Shown: positions 12,107 through 30,433 of the stretch, in pieces
How the letters are laid out: each line of letters starts with the position of its first letter
Numbering within the stretch: the stretch's first letter is position 1
Source of the DNA: Candidatus Daviesbacteria bacterium
GTDB taxonomy: Bacteria > Patescibacteriota > Microgenomatia > Daviesbacterales > UBA10151
Direction of reading: 5' to 3'
Length of the DNA stretch: 35,247 bases
Assembly: GCA_016186955.1 (NCBI GenBank)
Contig: JACPKP010000012.1
Span: 1-35,247 of the forward strand
Translations under genes and position numbers: made by a program
Notes under the pieces: model-generated
What the model was told of the DNA's origin: nothing
Databases searched by the model: none
Seen by the model: the letters and a program-made list of their open reading frames with translations, nothing else

Positions 12107-14811
12107 GGCTCCGGTTCATCCCTTTGGCCAAAATCATATCTCATACAGGCCCAGTCAAATGAGTTAACTTTAGTATCCCTGTTAAAATCACCATTTCTTG
12201 CGGCGCTGGCTGACCTGCTTTCCCCCCATTCCCTGTTTAATTCCGCCTTATCAGCGCTATTTATTACACCATCTCCACCGCTTAAGGGGAAGATATCACC
12301 AACTGGTAATATCATATCAGGGATAACATTTACCCCTGCTGCAGCTATGAAGGTAAACATACGCCTTAAAGACCCAGGGGCTTTCACCCAAACATTGTAT
12401 GCTTTGCCTATCTCAAACCTGGTTTGCAAACCCTGAACCCTACCTAACCTGTCGATACTGGTTGTTTCCCTCCTGGGGTTTGATATACTACTGGCTGATT
12501 CACTGGCTTCAGGCTGTTGGGAAATGATTACCTCAACATTGTTTTGGGTATGGTCGCTGGGCTGACGGCAAAACAGTTTGGTGCCAAGTTCAAGCTGTTC
12601 AAGTTGGCCTATGGTGCAAACTGTCTCCGTCTCCACCCCATCGCTTCTTTTGACAGTCAGGGGAAAATCTATCACATCCCTTAAATTATTCAGGGAAAAT
12701 TTAAGCAGTGCATCTATATTGTGATCATCCCAATTGTTAACCTGGGCATCAAGAGAGTCAGCAACCCGCAAACTTCCTTGAGATCCAAAATGCCTGCCTG
12801 AAAGATGAAACCTGACTCCATCATCACCAAGGCTGGTGGAACAATTTTTGGATGTCACCTGCGGATCCGGTTCAACCAGTTTAATAGATGCGCTTTTCCT
12901 TTGCACAGTCCCTTTAGACCCGACAAATTCAATAAATATAAATTTATCCCCGGGAGTATCATTTGCGAATTTGAAGTTAATCAGCACAGGTTCATCGCTG
13001 TAGGGGATCTGGAGGGCGCTTGACAGCCCCTCGGGTGTTTCTGAAAACTTATAAAACGATGTTTTTTCGCCGGTTTCACCTCCACCGCCACCACTAATTG
13101 TGATCGAACCTGCAATACTGGCAAGGGTTTCGGTTGTATCCTTCTTTTTGTCCTTACTTGCCGAAACAGTAAATTGATATGTACCTGTATTGGAAGGCGT
13201 ACCTTTTATCAAATCCAGTGAATCATCCAGGCTAATACCCGGAGGAAGAACTCCGCCTGTGACTGAAAGGGTAGTATTTGTAGACGGTACAACACCGGAA
13301 ACTCCTCCGCAATTGGACAATTTGACACGAGCATTATATGGTGCGCCTACTGCGCCGTTTGGCAGGGGATTGGGATCAAAGCTCAAATTACATTTCTTGT
13401 TTGTATCACCACTGCCCGGACTACCTGTACCTTTTTTGCCAGAAGATGTCGGAGTAGGGGTTGGTGTGCCTTGAGATCCATTGCAGGCTGTATTTACACC
13501 CAAATCTTGACAGCTACCTTGCTCCCAATGGCATGTACCACCTGAACTGCTCCTGAATACCCGGTACTGATGATCCGCCTGGGGATTGGTGCATATCTCC
13601 CGCGCAGCAAACTCATCACCACATACCTTATGCAAGCCCTGGTCCGAGCAACTGCCTCCGCTTGAGTAACCGCAAAACCCATTAACTTGCCTGGGGTTAC
13701 TACATTCATATGGCTCACTGCAGGAATCAGTTTTTTTCTGGACATCAATGACATAACCCGCCTGGCTAAAATTACCACCTTTTGTGTAACAATAAGTAGC
13801 CGGGTTGCCGCTGCATTCAGTATAAGAGTCACCGTCATTACCGCACTGCCCACCACCCCCTCCGCAATTTGCATTGGCGCCTTCATCCCTGCAACTCTCC
13901 CAATTACATGCATTGTTTTTATATATCCGGTATTGATGGGTTGGATCTGTATTTCCACAGGCTGACTGTGCTGTTTGCTCGTTACCACACACATGGTATG
14001 TACCTGGTGCAGGATTACAGTTTCCACCACCCCCTCCGCAATTTAGCGGATCCCCATCAACAACATCACAAGATCTCTGACAAGTTTCACTATCATCACA
14101 ATAACCTCCAGTGCATTGGCGGGTTACTCCATCCTGACAATATTGAGGTAAATCCTGGCAACCGTTCTCGTTACAACTTTCCTGAGCTAAAACATTTCCC
14201 ACTAAATTAAAGTCCGGTAATAATGCGCCATTTTTATTTTTATCTGTTGGTTTTGGAGTAGGGGTGAATGATTGTTTGCAAACACCAACTTTGTTGACAA
14301 TATCCTGGCAGGTAAAACCCGGTTGGCAATCTTTAGTTTTCTGGCATTTTTGGCCGGTACCCGGGGGTGGGGTAGATGATTGTTTGCAAACACCAACTTT
14401 GTTGACAATATCCTGGCAGGTAAAACCCGGTTGGCAATCTTTATCTTTTTTACATTGAACCGGAGGCGGGGTAGGGGTTGCGGTTGGGGTGGGCGTAGGG
14501 GTATCACAATTGCCTATACTTCCGCAGCTTGCAGGTGGTGTTGGAGAAGGCTCAGGTGTCCCTGGAGGCCCGATTGGAGAAACAGCCTCAACAGTCACCG
14601 GGTCTATGCAGGTTGCCACCAGCTGGTTATTCCGGGTTGTTACACAGGCGCCTTCCTTAAATTTAATATAACCTACCTGAGCCCTGGAAAAAAGGATCTG
14701 CTGTTGTTTGACAAGGGCGATGCCAATAGGCAGGCCTAAAATTATCACTACCAACACCAACAAATTGACAAGGTTACGCCTTGTCTTGAGAAAACTTACT
14801 AAATCATTCAC
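12103..14811 (-). CDS. Large Cys-rich surface protein with Ig-like domain and C-terminal dockerin
   Basis: A 902-residue exported protein. An N-terminal membrane segment (15-35) is followed by KQQQILFSRA, a motif common in Microgenomates surface proteins. Next come Pro/Thr linkers, a duplicated 36-residue Cys module (about 120-180), and further Cys-rich modules of which two (about 273-316 and 394-443) share H-x-VCG-E, HQYR and a C-x-W-E core. A putative Ig (He_PIG-like) domain lies at about 474-573, with LPPGISLD and GTPSNTGTYQFTVSA, then an IPT/TIG-like region at about 645-740. A dockerin-like pair of Ca loops follows: D847-GVINSAD and D875-x-N-x-D-x-KVNSFD, the first loop carrying a 4-residue insertion after D839. 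Start is GTG; no in-frame ATG lies nearby. It heads the cohesin operon. Confidence 0.8.
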   Translation of the reverse strand: MNDLVSFLKTRRNLVNLLVLVVIILGLPIGIALVKQQQILFSRAQVGYIKFKEGACVTTRNNQLVATCIDPVTVEAVSPIGPPGTPEPSPTPPASCGSIGNCDTPTPTPTATPTPPPVQCKKDKDCQPGFTCQDIVNKVGVCKQSSTPPPGTGQKCQKTKDCQPGFTCQDIVNKVGVCKQSFTPTPKPTDKNKNGALLPDFNLVGNVLAQESCNENGCQDLPQYCQDGVTRQCTGGYCDDSETCQRSCDVVDGDPLNCGGGGGNCNPAPGTYHVCGNEQTAQSACGNTDPTHQYRIYKNNACNWESCRDEGANANCGGGGGQCGNDGDSYTECSGNPATYCYTKGGNFSQAGYVIDVQKKTDSCSEPYECSNPRQVNGFCGYSSGGSCSDQGLHKVCGDEFAAREICTNPQADHQYRVFRSSSGGTCHWEQGSCQDLGVNTACNGSQGTPTPTPTSSGKKGTGSPGSGDTNKKCNLSFDPNPLPNGAVGAPYNARVKLSNCGGVSGVVPSTNTTLSVTGGVLPPGISLDDSLDLIKGTPSNTGTYQFTVSASKDKKKDTTETLASIAGSITISGGGGGETGEKTSFYKFSETPEGLSSALQIPYSDEPVLINFKFANDTPGDKFIFIEFVGSKGTVQRKSASIKLVEPDPQVTSKNCSTSLGDDGVRFHLSGRHFGSQGSLRVADSLDAQVNNWDDHNIDALLKFSLNNLRDVIDFPLTVKRSDGVETETVCTIGQLEQLELGTKLFCRQPSDHTQNNVEVIISQQPEASESASSISNPRRETTSIDRLGRVQGLQTRFEIGKAYNVWVKAPGSLRRMFTFIAAAGVNVIPDMILPVGDIFPLSGGDGVINSADKAELNREWGESRSASAARNGDFNRDTKVNSFDWACMRYDFGQRDEPEP
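14268..14443. repeat. 68-bp perfect direct repeat in the dockerin gene
   Basis: Bases 14268-14335 are identical to 14376-14443, with a period of 108 nt (36 codons), so the reading frame is kept. Each copy encodes the CQPGFTCQDIVNKVGVCKQS module. Perfect identity at the DNA level indicates a recent in-frame duplication. Confidence 0.95.
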
Positions 14812-24935: not shown

Positions 24936-24963
24936 ATTATACTATTAGATTTTCAGTTTTCAA
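24936..24963 (-). promoter_or_regulatory. Promoter of the yebC-purine operon
   Basis: TTGAAA (24958-24963) and TATAAT (24936-24941) are separated by 16 nt on the minus strand. The -10 ends 10 nt before the yebC ATG, leaving only a few bases of leader. There is therefore no room for a purine riboswitch ahead of the operon. Confidence 0.75.
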
Positions 24964-25048
24964 TTTTTAATCGTTTGCATTGAAAATTTATTGTAAATTG
25001 GAGTTGGTACTTGAAAATTAGTCTATTATTTGACATACTCTTTGTTTG

Positions 25049-27864: not shown

Positions 27865-29544
27865 CTATTCCAACCCTTTAAAATGGATATTGGGCCAAGT
27901 TTGTTGGAGCTGCTCTACCAGGAATTTGCCAGAAACAATTTCCGGCAGGATGATATAATCAGCGCCCAGTGTCTTAAGCGCTGCTGCGTGTTCATGGTCT
28001 AAAGCCCTCACCACAATTTTGCCTCTCACCTTCCTTTTTCGACATTCTTCCAAAAGCATCTCATTGTCCTCCATATCAATCGCCGTAGAAATTATCAACT
28101 TAGCGCCGTTTAACTGTAAGCTCTCTAAAACATCAGGGTCGCCAATATCTCCATATACAACATTCATCTCCTCCTCTCTTAATTGTTCAACGATATGAGG
28201 GTTAAAATCCATCACCAAAAACGGTATATGCCATTTTTGCAGAAATCTGACGATAGGCCCACCCAATCTGTGCGCACCTATTATCACAACGTGATCCTGC
28301 ATCTCACTCTCAACTTTTGATTCAAGAAAGTGGACTTTGTTTGAGTGCTCAAAAAAGGGTAACAACGGGGATAGCAGATTATAAATCCGACGGGAATATG
28401 CTATGAGCACAGAAGAGGCGATAACCGATATCACTGCGACCGCCGCCATAACAGAAAGGGCAACTGTGGAAACAGCGCCTATTTTAAGCCCCACAAGCAG
28501 AATAACTAAGGAAAATTCTGAAATTTGAGATAAATGCAACGCTGTCTGGAACATAGTATGCTTCCTAAACCCAAACATCCCGAGTATCAGAAGAGAGATA
28601 AACGGTTTTACAAATAAAGCATAGGCGCTAAATGCGAGTATGGCCGGCCAGGCTGAAAGAAGATCGGTCAGTTTTGCCTGTGTGCCTAGATATACAAAAA
28701 ACAGTGTCACAAAAAAATCACGCAGAGGTCTGATCTTGCTTTGTATTTGCAGGTGGTACGGCGACGACGCCAACCCTATTCCCGCGAGGAACGCTCCAAT
28801 CACTACCGAAAAACCGCTTAGTGTTGCTATTGTGGTAAATAAAAAACACCAGGTTATTGCTGTTAAAAAAAGCAGTTCAGTATTTTTTGCCACAGCATCA
28901 AAGATCTTTTCCAACACATATTTTGAAAGTACAAATGTTAAAAAGAAAAGCAGCAATGCTTTGAAAACGAGGATCAAAAGCGGCAGTGATTGTTGAAGAC
29001 CCAGGTGTAAAAATGAGCTGCTAACCGATATCCCCATTAGAACCAATATCGCAACCAGGTCTTCCAGAAGGAGGATACCCAGGGAAAGCTTGCCGTATAA
29101 AGAGGTAAGATCCCGCTTCTCAAGAAGCAATTTGATCACTACCAGGGTCGACGAAAAAGCCAAACCTATTCCTAAATAGAAACTTTCAACTTGGTTGAAA
29201 CCTAAATAACCAGCTATAGCGTATCCTGCTAGTGTAGAAATAATGGTCTGGCCCAAAGATGTCATGATAATTGGTTTGCCAAGACTTCTTATCTCCCGTA
29301 GATCTAGTTCCATACCTATCAAAAACAATACAAAAGCTATGCCAAGCTCCGGTAAAAAATTAAATATCCAAAGACTGTGCAAATCTATCGGGTTGCTTTG
29401 AAATGCCACCAGCGCCAAACCAGACAATGTAACTCCTGAGACCAGATAGGCTATGACCAAAGGCAACCTCAGCCTGTACATAACAAAACCGAAGAATGAA
29501 GCCAGTGATAGAACTAACGCAAATTGCAAAAAGATATTTTCCAT
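27865..29544 (-). CDS. Kef-type cation/proton antiporter with RCK domain
   Basis: A 559-residue CPA2-family membrane protein. About 12-13 membrane helices fill residues 1-385, with ELGIAFVLFLIGMELD, SSTLVVIKLL and an ED pair (E161, D162) in LGILLLEDLVAILVL at the position of the ion-binding pair of this family. A cytoplasmic TrkA-N/RCK domain follows (about 416-535): HVVIIGAHRLGG, VMDFNPHIVEQL, VVYGDIGDPDVL. Its nucleotide loop reads GAHRLGG instead of the usual GxGxxG, with His and Leu in place of the first spacer glycine context. It probably exchanges K+ or Na+ for protons. The start overlaps the pseudouridine synthase stop as TAATG. Confidence 0.9.
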   Translation of the reverse strand: MENIFLQFALVLSLASFFGFVMYRLRLPLVIAYLVSGVTLSGLALVAFQSNPIDLHSLWIFNFLPELGIAFVLFLIGMELDLREIRSLGKPIIMTSLGQTIISTLAGYAIAGYLGFNQVESFYLGIGLAFSSTLVVIKLLLEKRDLTSLYGKLSLGILLLEDLVAILVLMGISVSSSFLHLGLQQSLPLLILVFKALLLFFLTFVLSKYVLEKIFDAVAKNTELLFLTAITWCFLFTTIATLSGFSVVIGAFLAGIGLASSPYHLQIQSKIRPLRDFFVTLFFVYLGTQAKLTDLLSAWPAILAFSAYALFVKPFISLLILGMFGFRKHTMFQTALHLSQISEFSLVILLVGLKIGAVSTVALSVMAAVAVISVIASSVLIAYSRRIYNLLSPLLPFFEHSNKVHFLESKVESEMQDHVVIIGAHRLGGPIVRFLQKWHIPFLVMDFNPHIVEQLREEEMNVVYGDIGDPDVLESLQLNGAKLIISTAIDMEDNEMLLEECRKRKVRGKIVVRALDHEHAAALKTLGADYIILPEIVSGKFLVEQLQQTWPNIHFKGLE

Positions 29545-30350
29545 TAAGAATTTATAATATGTAACTTACCTAACGCTTCTTGTAAATCATGAGGTAAATC
29601 ACTTTTAAATTCAATCCATATACCATTTACGGGATGCTTAAAACCTATTTCGCCGGCATGTAAAAATTGTCTCGGGCACCATCTTTTGTCTAACCTGACA
29701 ATTTTTCTACCCCCATACTTTTCATCGGATACAACCGGATGCCCGATATACTTTAAATGTACCCTAATTTGATGAGTCCGTCCAGTTTTGGGATGACACT
29801 TAAGCAAGGAGAATTCGTTGTAGTGCATTCTTTCCAATTTCCTAGTTTGAATTTTATTTAAATCATTAAAAATTGATTGAAAATTGAGAATTGAAAACCT
29901 GTCTGCCGACAGGCAAGATTGAAAATTGCCCGCAGGTTCATATTCTGTCTCCGCTTCCTTCCCATCTGTTGAGACCTCAAATTTCTCCCTTCTTGCAGGG
30001 TTTCTTTCTATAGCGCCTACAATCACTCCGTTTTTCTCTACAAATCCATGGACAAGCGCTAAATATTCTTTTCTCACTATTCTTTCCTTGAATTGGGACT
30101 GCAACCCTTCTAGAGCTGTCTGGGTTTTTGCAACAAGTAAAAGTCCTGAAGTATCCTTATCCAATCTATGCACTATCCCCATCCTCTCCAGTTTTATCCC
30201 GCTATGATACTCTAGAGTATCATAGCGCTCCTTTAACCAACTTACCAGGGTCGGACCCTTATTTGTTGATGATTCATCAACCACCAATCCAGGGGGTTTA
30301 TCAACCACCATCAGGTACTCATCTTCAAATATTACCGGAATTTTCACCAT
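29544..30350 (-). CDS. RluD-family pseudouridine synthase with apparent in-frame insertion
   Basis: Isomerises uridine to pseudouridine in RNA, probably 23S rRNA. A 268-residue protein lacking the N-terminal S4 domain of RluC/RluD. Family motifs are DEYLMVVDKPPGLVV, GIVHRLDKDTSGLLLVAKT with catalytic D64, KEYLALVHG, KTGRTHQIRVHLKYIGHPV and FLHAGEIGF. Between ETEYEPAGNF and the YNEFSLLKCHPKTGR strand there are about 30 extra residues (about 144-173), encoded by a GC-rich palindrome plus AT-rich repeat-like DNA, all in frame. A second, perfect 28-bp palindrome lies within codons 42-50. The catalytic core seems intact, so the protein may be active. It is upstream of and coupled to the antiporter gene. 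Confidence 0.88.
   Translation of the reverse strand: MVKIPVIFEDEYLMVVDKPPGLVVDESSTNKGPTLVSWLKERYDTLEYHSGIKLERMGIVHRLDKDTSGLLLVAKTQTALEGLQSQFKERIVRKEYLALVHGFVEKNGVIVGAIERNPARREKFEVSTDGKEAETEYEPAGNFQSCLSADRFSILNFQSIFNDLNKIQTRKLERMHYNEFSLLKCHPKTGRTHQIRVHLKYIGHPVVSDEKYGGRKIVRLDKRWCPRQFLHAGEIGFKHPVNGIWIEFKSDLPHDLQEALGKLHIINS
29829..29921 (-). repeat. Repeat-derived in-frame insert in the pseudouridine synthase gene
   Basis: Contains the palindrome-like CCTGTCTGCCGACAGG (29898-29913, 6-bp stem, 4-nt loop) followed on the minus strand by TTTTCAATTCTCAATTTTC and CAATTTTTAATGATTT. Similar TTTTCAATTTTTAAT sequence occurs in the non-coding region at 24956-24970, and a related GC-rich palindrome occurs at 30414-30433. 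Confidence 0.6.
30200..30227. repeat. Perfect 28-bp palindrome inside a coding region
   Basis: Each half is 14 bp: CGCTATGATACTCT followed directly by its reverse complement, with TCTAGA at the centre and no loop spacer. It falls in codons for ERYDTLEYHS of the pseudouridine synthase. Confidence 0.95.
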
Positions 30351-30413: not shown

Positions 30414-30433
30414 CCTGCCTGCCGGCAGGCAGG
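30414..30433. repeat. Perfect 20-bp GC-rich palindrome
   Basis: CCTGCCTGCC followed by its exact reverse complement, in the gap between the response-regulator stop and the pseudouridine synthase start. It shares CTGCCG-CAGG sequence with the 29898-29913 element. No T tract follows on the minus strand, so it is not a standard intrinsic terminator, though the hairpin could stabilise the 3' end of the message. Confidence 0.85.

Follow-up and report, generated by a model that had tools for sequence, protein, structure and literature searches.

How does an intact gene for a pseudouridine synthase come to carry, in frame, DNA that looks like a dispersed repeat, and how much of this DNA is really an insertion? 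The gene occupies positions 29544-30350 on the minus strand of the window (the whole stretch of 35,247 nucleotides that was analysed) and encodes a protein of 268 aa. Its assignment to the RluA/RluD family is based on the family profile (TIGR00005, 226.5 bits), an intact catalytic motif (HRLDKDTSG, with its HRLD) and the RluD fold, which is retained in the structural model according to Foldseek (matches to RluD structures 2ist and 1qyu, E about 2e-21). D64 is invariant in an alignment with 30 same-family orthologues, and the gene is single-copy, being the sole protein match in the genome at E<=1e-20.

A 20-bp imperfect GC-rich palindrome (CCTGTCTGCCGACAGGCAAG; 29898-29917), flanked by AT-rich sequence of the TTTTCAAT type, is located inside this intact ORF, as an earlier note on the DNA had described, and within the window each of the two motifs is more frequent than expected by chance (CTGCCNNCAGGC, three against 0.04 expected; CAATTTTCAAT-like sites, 11 against 3.4 expected). 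The palindrome is nested in a tandem heptamer array, (TTTTCAA)n. Read along the minus strand, the 5' part of the array (29919-29928, CAATTTTCAA, residues NFQ), which is a period-7 array in the orthologues, precedes a lineage-specific 21-bp insert (29898-29918, TCTTGCCTGTCGGCAGACAGG) composed of the palindrome and one further nucleotide and forming codons 145-151 (SCLSADR). The 3' part of the array (29875-29897, TTTTCAATTCTCAATTTTCAATC, FSILNFQ..) follows, coinciding with a period-7 peak at the same alignment position, and then an old family-specific segment (29817-29874, SIFNDLNKIQTRKLERMHYN) that is kept in the f1 orthologues and absent from E. coli RluD. The end of the latter overlaps a second heptamer zone, and helices are predicted at residues 154-160 and 166-174. 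The same gene also harbours a second in-frame palindrome, a perfect one of another type (30200-30227, minus strand, 28 bp, CGCTATGATACTCTAGAGTATCATAGCG, RYDTLEYHS); a similar insert is present in the G006 and G026 orthologues, and G006 has a second copy of this type about 14 kb off. Elsewhere in the window, at 14261-14456, a 902-aa ORF contains a tandem direct repeat of 88 nt (92% identity, copies 108 nt apart) in which KDCQPGFTCQDIVNKVGVCKQS is repeated.

The extent of the insertion was deduced from orthologues in 30 genomes of the same family (f1; 54-71% identity, genus-distant only). The earlier note had taken around 30 residues without counterpart in RluD as repeat-derived. Solved E. coli RluD structures indeed lack a counterpart of residues 144-175 (32 residues), but about 25 of these are conserved across the 30 orthologues (LQEIFSDFNKIQMRKL...), whose shared segment reads ...LQEIFSDFNKIQMRKLxxMxYxxFTLL with NKI and Y177 nearly invariant; outside the family this old segment is mostly absent. 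Because the AT-rich part is conserved in the orthologues, most of what had been taken for insert is older, a segment shared across the family and based on heptamer arrays. Such conservation at the protein level, which the note had named as evidence against an insertion, does not extend to the 21 bp encoding SCLSADR, which are found in 0/30 orthologues and are unique to this genome. Three orthologues (L050, L051 and L061) read NFQFSI(F/S)NFQ from (TTTTCAA)n without a palindrome, while the present gene reads NFQ-SCLSADR-FSILNFQ; hence the lineage-specific insert is 21 bp, exactly seven codons, and not ~30 residues. Judged from the alignment, these palindrome-free arrays represent the empty site, and empty-site orthologues typically have 76 residues in the region against 83 in the present gene. 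The insert is stop-free and in frame, and since the insertion site is itself repetitive, a target-site duplication is not readable.

It could still be argued that the whole segment of ~90 bp arrived as one large unit similar to the Rickettsia palindromic elements (RPEs), given that the BLAST likeness to intergenic copies spans 82 bp at 85% and that the AT-rich flanks of the palindrome resemble intergenic elements. However, the palindrome-free orthologues retain the AT-rich array as well as the conserved residues further downstream, and by eye the array of the gene is nearer to those of the orthologues than to the intergenic copies. We therefore regard insertion of a large unit as largely refuted and quite unlikely.

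The palindrome belongs to a dispersed family. The genome comprises 1.37 Mb in 15 contigs, its size and gene content pointing to a likely Patescibacteria lineage, and our census combined pattern searches with about 470 kb of sequence stretches. The genome-wide search that the earlier note had called for gave 38 BLAST matches to the segment, of which five, besides the segment itself, have 80-95% identity over 55-84 bp; the palindrome with at most two mismatches occurs at 30 sites, and the reversed control has none. A core common to six copies of the subtype in the gene reads AATTTT[CT]A[AG]TCTT[GA]CCTGTCGGCAGACAGGTTT[TA]CAATT. The non-coding gaps that the note had likened to the gene do contain repeats, but of one kind each: 30414-30433, upstream of the pseudouridine synthase gene, has only a palindrome (CCTGCCTGCCGGCAGGCAGG), and 24954-25000 only AT-rich sequence of heptamer type (TTTTCAAT/TTTTTAAT). 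The palindrome was found in 29/57 genomes of the class; among the matches listed in a scan of named genomes it occurs in Patescibacteria, Bacteroidota, Omnitrophota, Planctomycetota and others, and 62 viral-contig stretches carry it as well. Our literature search did not find GCCTGCCGGCAGGC, and PAGRQ returned unrelated peptides only. Four mostly intergenic palindromes (L107:11249, L109:6372, L110:12125 and L404:1466) have common flanks resembling GAGGTGnnAAGC...TAAyCCAyC and look like the apical stem of a small structured RNA. Rfam at its gathering threshold identified just tRNAs and 16S in four stretches, three of which have palindromes in this shared context (L107, L109 and L110) and gave no match there.

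Palindromes of this family are also found within other genes. Inspection of all 30 sites revealed about 15 credible ORFs that carry one, including rplB (L2), rpsF (S6), polA, lysS (LysRS), gap (GAPDH) and htpX as identified by NCBIfam profiles, and pheT and argS (ArgRS) by reading of the sequence. In polA the insert adds seven residues (LPAGRQV, 21 bp) that are absent from the other family genomes where the region aligned, with the exception that the polA of L382 has an unrelated insert in the same region; in rplB it adds 14 residues (42 bp) relative to the five orthologues extractable by anchors. A single frame, reading LPAGRQ or LPDGSQ, is used at 13 of the 15 credible intragenic sites (p about 1e-4), and this bias suggests filtering at the protein level. 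The pseudouridine synthase copy, SCLSADR with its cysteine, is one of the two exceptions. Moreover, the compound of array and palindrome recurs in a second, unrelated gene and in a different frame: a 295-aa ORF on contig 12, preceded by an SD-like GAGGAGG and an upstream in-frame stop, has it at the N terminus.

As similar hairpins and seven-letter tandem repeats are located in many essential genes, short "junk" repeats seem to be routinely translated as protein in this genome. The 30 sites, the empty sites, polA, rplB and the second ORF thus uphold the central proposal of the earlier note, that repeat-derived DNA also present in non-coding gaps is kept as a predicted in-frame peptide. Inserts of this sort need not be translated; those of the mobile byp elements of yeast mitochondria are not. 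Ribosome bypass, or removal from the RNA, would be compatible with GC-rich hairpins sitting in essential genes, but neither would require inserts that are multiples of three, stop-free and biased in frame. The inserts that were measured (two of 21 bp and one of 42 bp) are all stop-free, and together with the frame bias they count against this explanation, which we hold to be extremely improbable.

The polA genes show additional variation. That of the present genome (L371) has a further insert in a variable loop (NVIASEAKQSDNQKEIALSSDGHRSPRNDG), similar to peptides known from other widespread palindromic repeats, and close to it an insert of 28 residues around ASPKDIMARASRTLPSAKAEGDPKKTF. The polA ORFs L397 (G005) and L400 (G023) are 1139 and 1232 aa long, with an extra block after AVNHPVQG/AINHPVQG that begins CLPEDTRIL and CLPWETKIL, respectively, and is intein-like in appearance.

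On the protein, the insert maps to a region of low confidence. An AlphaFold2 model built from a 14-sequence alignment has a mean pLDDT of 87.4, with residues 148-153, between strand 134-144 and helix 154-160, below 50. The insert is therefore predicted to be a flexible or disordered loop extension that leaves the catalytic motif intact. One may ask whether the palindrome and the arrays are instead functional features of the protein or RNA, such as a loop under selection for rRNA binding or an mRNA hairpin with a regulatory role, rather than tolerated insertions. The loop does belong to an RNA-modifying enzyme, and the mRNA hairpin of the palindrome is stable, if modest (-11.3 kcal/mol, z -2.6). 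However, the seven residues are missing from 30/30 orthologues and predicted to be disordered, and many unrelated genes contain the same DNA as an insert, which makes a functional role very unlikely.

Across the 30 aligned orthologues, period-7 self-identity in a sliding window is 0.19-0.33 nearly gene-wide, and its two peaks (0.47 and 0.43) both fall in the extra segment. The unit at this position varies by genome (TTTTCAA, AAGTATC, GTTACAG, TTTCAGC and others). The (AAGTATC)3 array in the pseudouridine synthase gene of G022 is the only one in that genome; it was probably formed in place, and copying from elsewhere in the genome is disfavoured. In the orthologues of G043 and G046 (L119 and L121), which belong to other families, a TTTTCAA array reading NFQFSIF(N/S)FQ occupies another loop, immediately ahead of the catalytic HRLDK. 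We counted 28 period-7 arrays in 326 kb, where shuffles gave 0-1 and other periods 0-8; this sample is biased, having been drawn from the surroundings of repeats, but an unbiased sample of 143 kb gave 7 such arrays against 0-2 for other periods. In this genome 26/35 arrays are within ORFs >=150 aa, and in relatives, with the pseudouridine synthase gene masked, 3/20 are inside ORFs, both fractions being approximate because the ORFs were called mechanically. The arrays are accordingly enriched strongly and specifically, and are mostly coding in this genome. Frequent intragenic arrays with a genome-varying unit at one position have, as far as we searched, not been described in the literature.

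Taken together, we consider it highly likely that the pseudouridine synthase gene already had an in-frame heptamer array when a short palindromic element of REP/RPE type inserted there, and that translation of this element lengthens a loop by seven tolerated residues. The palindrome may have arrived by transposition-like copying or by recombination between the heptamer array of the gene and an intergenic array-palindrome element, after which the 21 bp would be read as seven extra residues. The insert would persist owing to its length of a multiple of three, its stop-free frame and the tolerance of the loop, and on these grounds would be neutral or selfish, and not a peptide with a function. 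Meanwhile, the arrays around it would turn over in place and offer tolerant sites.

No mobilising enzyme for the palindrome was found: RAYT-like genes exist, but none of those inspected is immediately flanked by it. Y1_Tnp genes are present in 50/57 genomes searched, with three in this genome, and we inspected 17 RAYT neighbourhoods, including those of two of the three own-genome genes. Other hairpins flank some of these RAYTs; the palindrome in L147, and a related one in L145, lie >500 bp from the RAYT and within another ORF. With no palindrome in the immediate flanks, and with G031 possessing 30 palindrome copies and no Y1_Tnp, mobilisation by RAYT is not supported. At the RAYT-like locus of G007 (L157), three copies of GCAAGGTGACGCCTTGC surround the Y1_Tnp match, an arrangement that is REPtron-like and unrelated to the palindrome studied here.

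A bolder and rather doubtful idea, which we put forward tentatively, is that the lineage has an active process that specifically makes 7-nt tandem arrays and captures palindromes in genes, so that repeat DNA would constantly renew coding loops, 21 nt (7 residues) at a time. If so, the pseudouridine synthase loop, with different heptamers at the same position in different genomes, would be the clearest record of such rebuilding. The insertions and arrays described here make it testable by which route repeat DNA gives rise to additional protein loops, and why the arrays repeat every 7 nt, although a period of 6 or 9 would preserve the frame far more easily.

Among known systems, RPEs are dispersed palindromic repeats that occur between genes and in frame within functional protein genes, including the truB pseudouridine synthase and a DNA polymerase gene (PMC3733652, PMC10969869). 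The likeness to RPEs drawn by the earlier note is sound in functional terms only, as we observed a dispersed palindrome family (30 sites, 0 in the reversed control) and in-frame insertions with repeat-free orthologues in the pseudouridine synthase gene, polA and rplB. However, the units are 21 or 42 bp instead of about 100-150 bp (the RPE unit is about 150 bp; PMC10969869), and CGTC, in which the RPEs of R. conorii end (PMC3733652), is within 8 nt of only 1/30 sites. The lineage is also unrelated, and the palindromes are partly nested in heptamer arrays. Intragenic GTAG/CGTC REPs are palindromes of 20-40 bp, some of them in polA, tRNA synthetase, DNA ligase and pseudouridine synthase genes (PMC3733652), and the present palindromes are similarly short and located inside polA, tRNA synthetase and pseudouridine synthase genes. 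The GTAG tag, however, is found at 0/30 sites (its reverse complement CTAC at 1/30), and in none of the 17 RAYT neighbourhoods does this palindrome immediately flank the RAYT gene. The element hence works like an RPE or REP, but with the RPE size and the CGTC and GTAG tags lacking, it is a variant and not a member of either group.

Tandem 7-nt units dispersed in the genome are likewise known from bacteria, as GGGNATC in Xanthomonas and Nostoc and TAACTGA in Beggiatoaceae (PMC4692102, PMC4679880), and over-representation of heptamers was already recognized (PMC4692102). The present arrays resemble them in that period 7 exceeds both chance and other periods. Those heptamers are mainly intergenic and each has one consensus, whereas here many different units occur, most of the arrays are within ORFs, and the unit differs between genomes at the same position. 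Palindromes inserted in frame, for which Rickettsia is the best-known case, are thus now seen in a small-genome lineage, where their host genes include those for ribosomal protein L2 and DNA polymerase I as well as several for tRNA synthetases, and where they are coupled with intragenic heptamer arrays whose unit is genome-specific at a fixed position in one protein.
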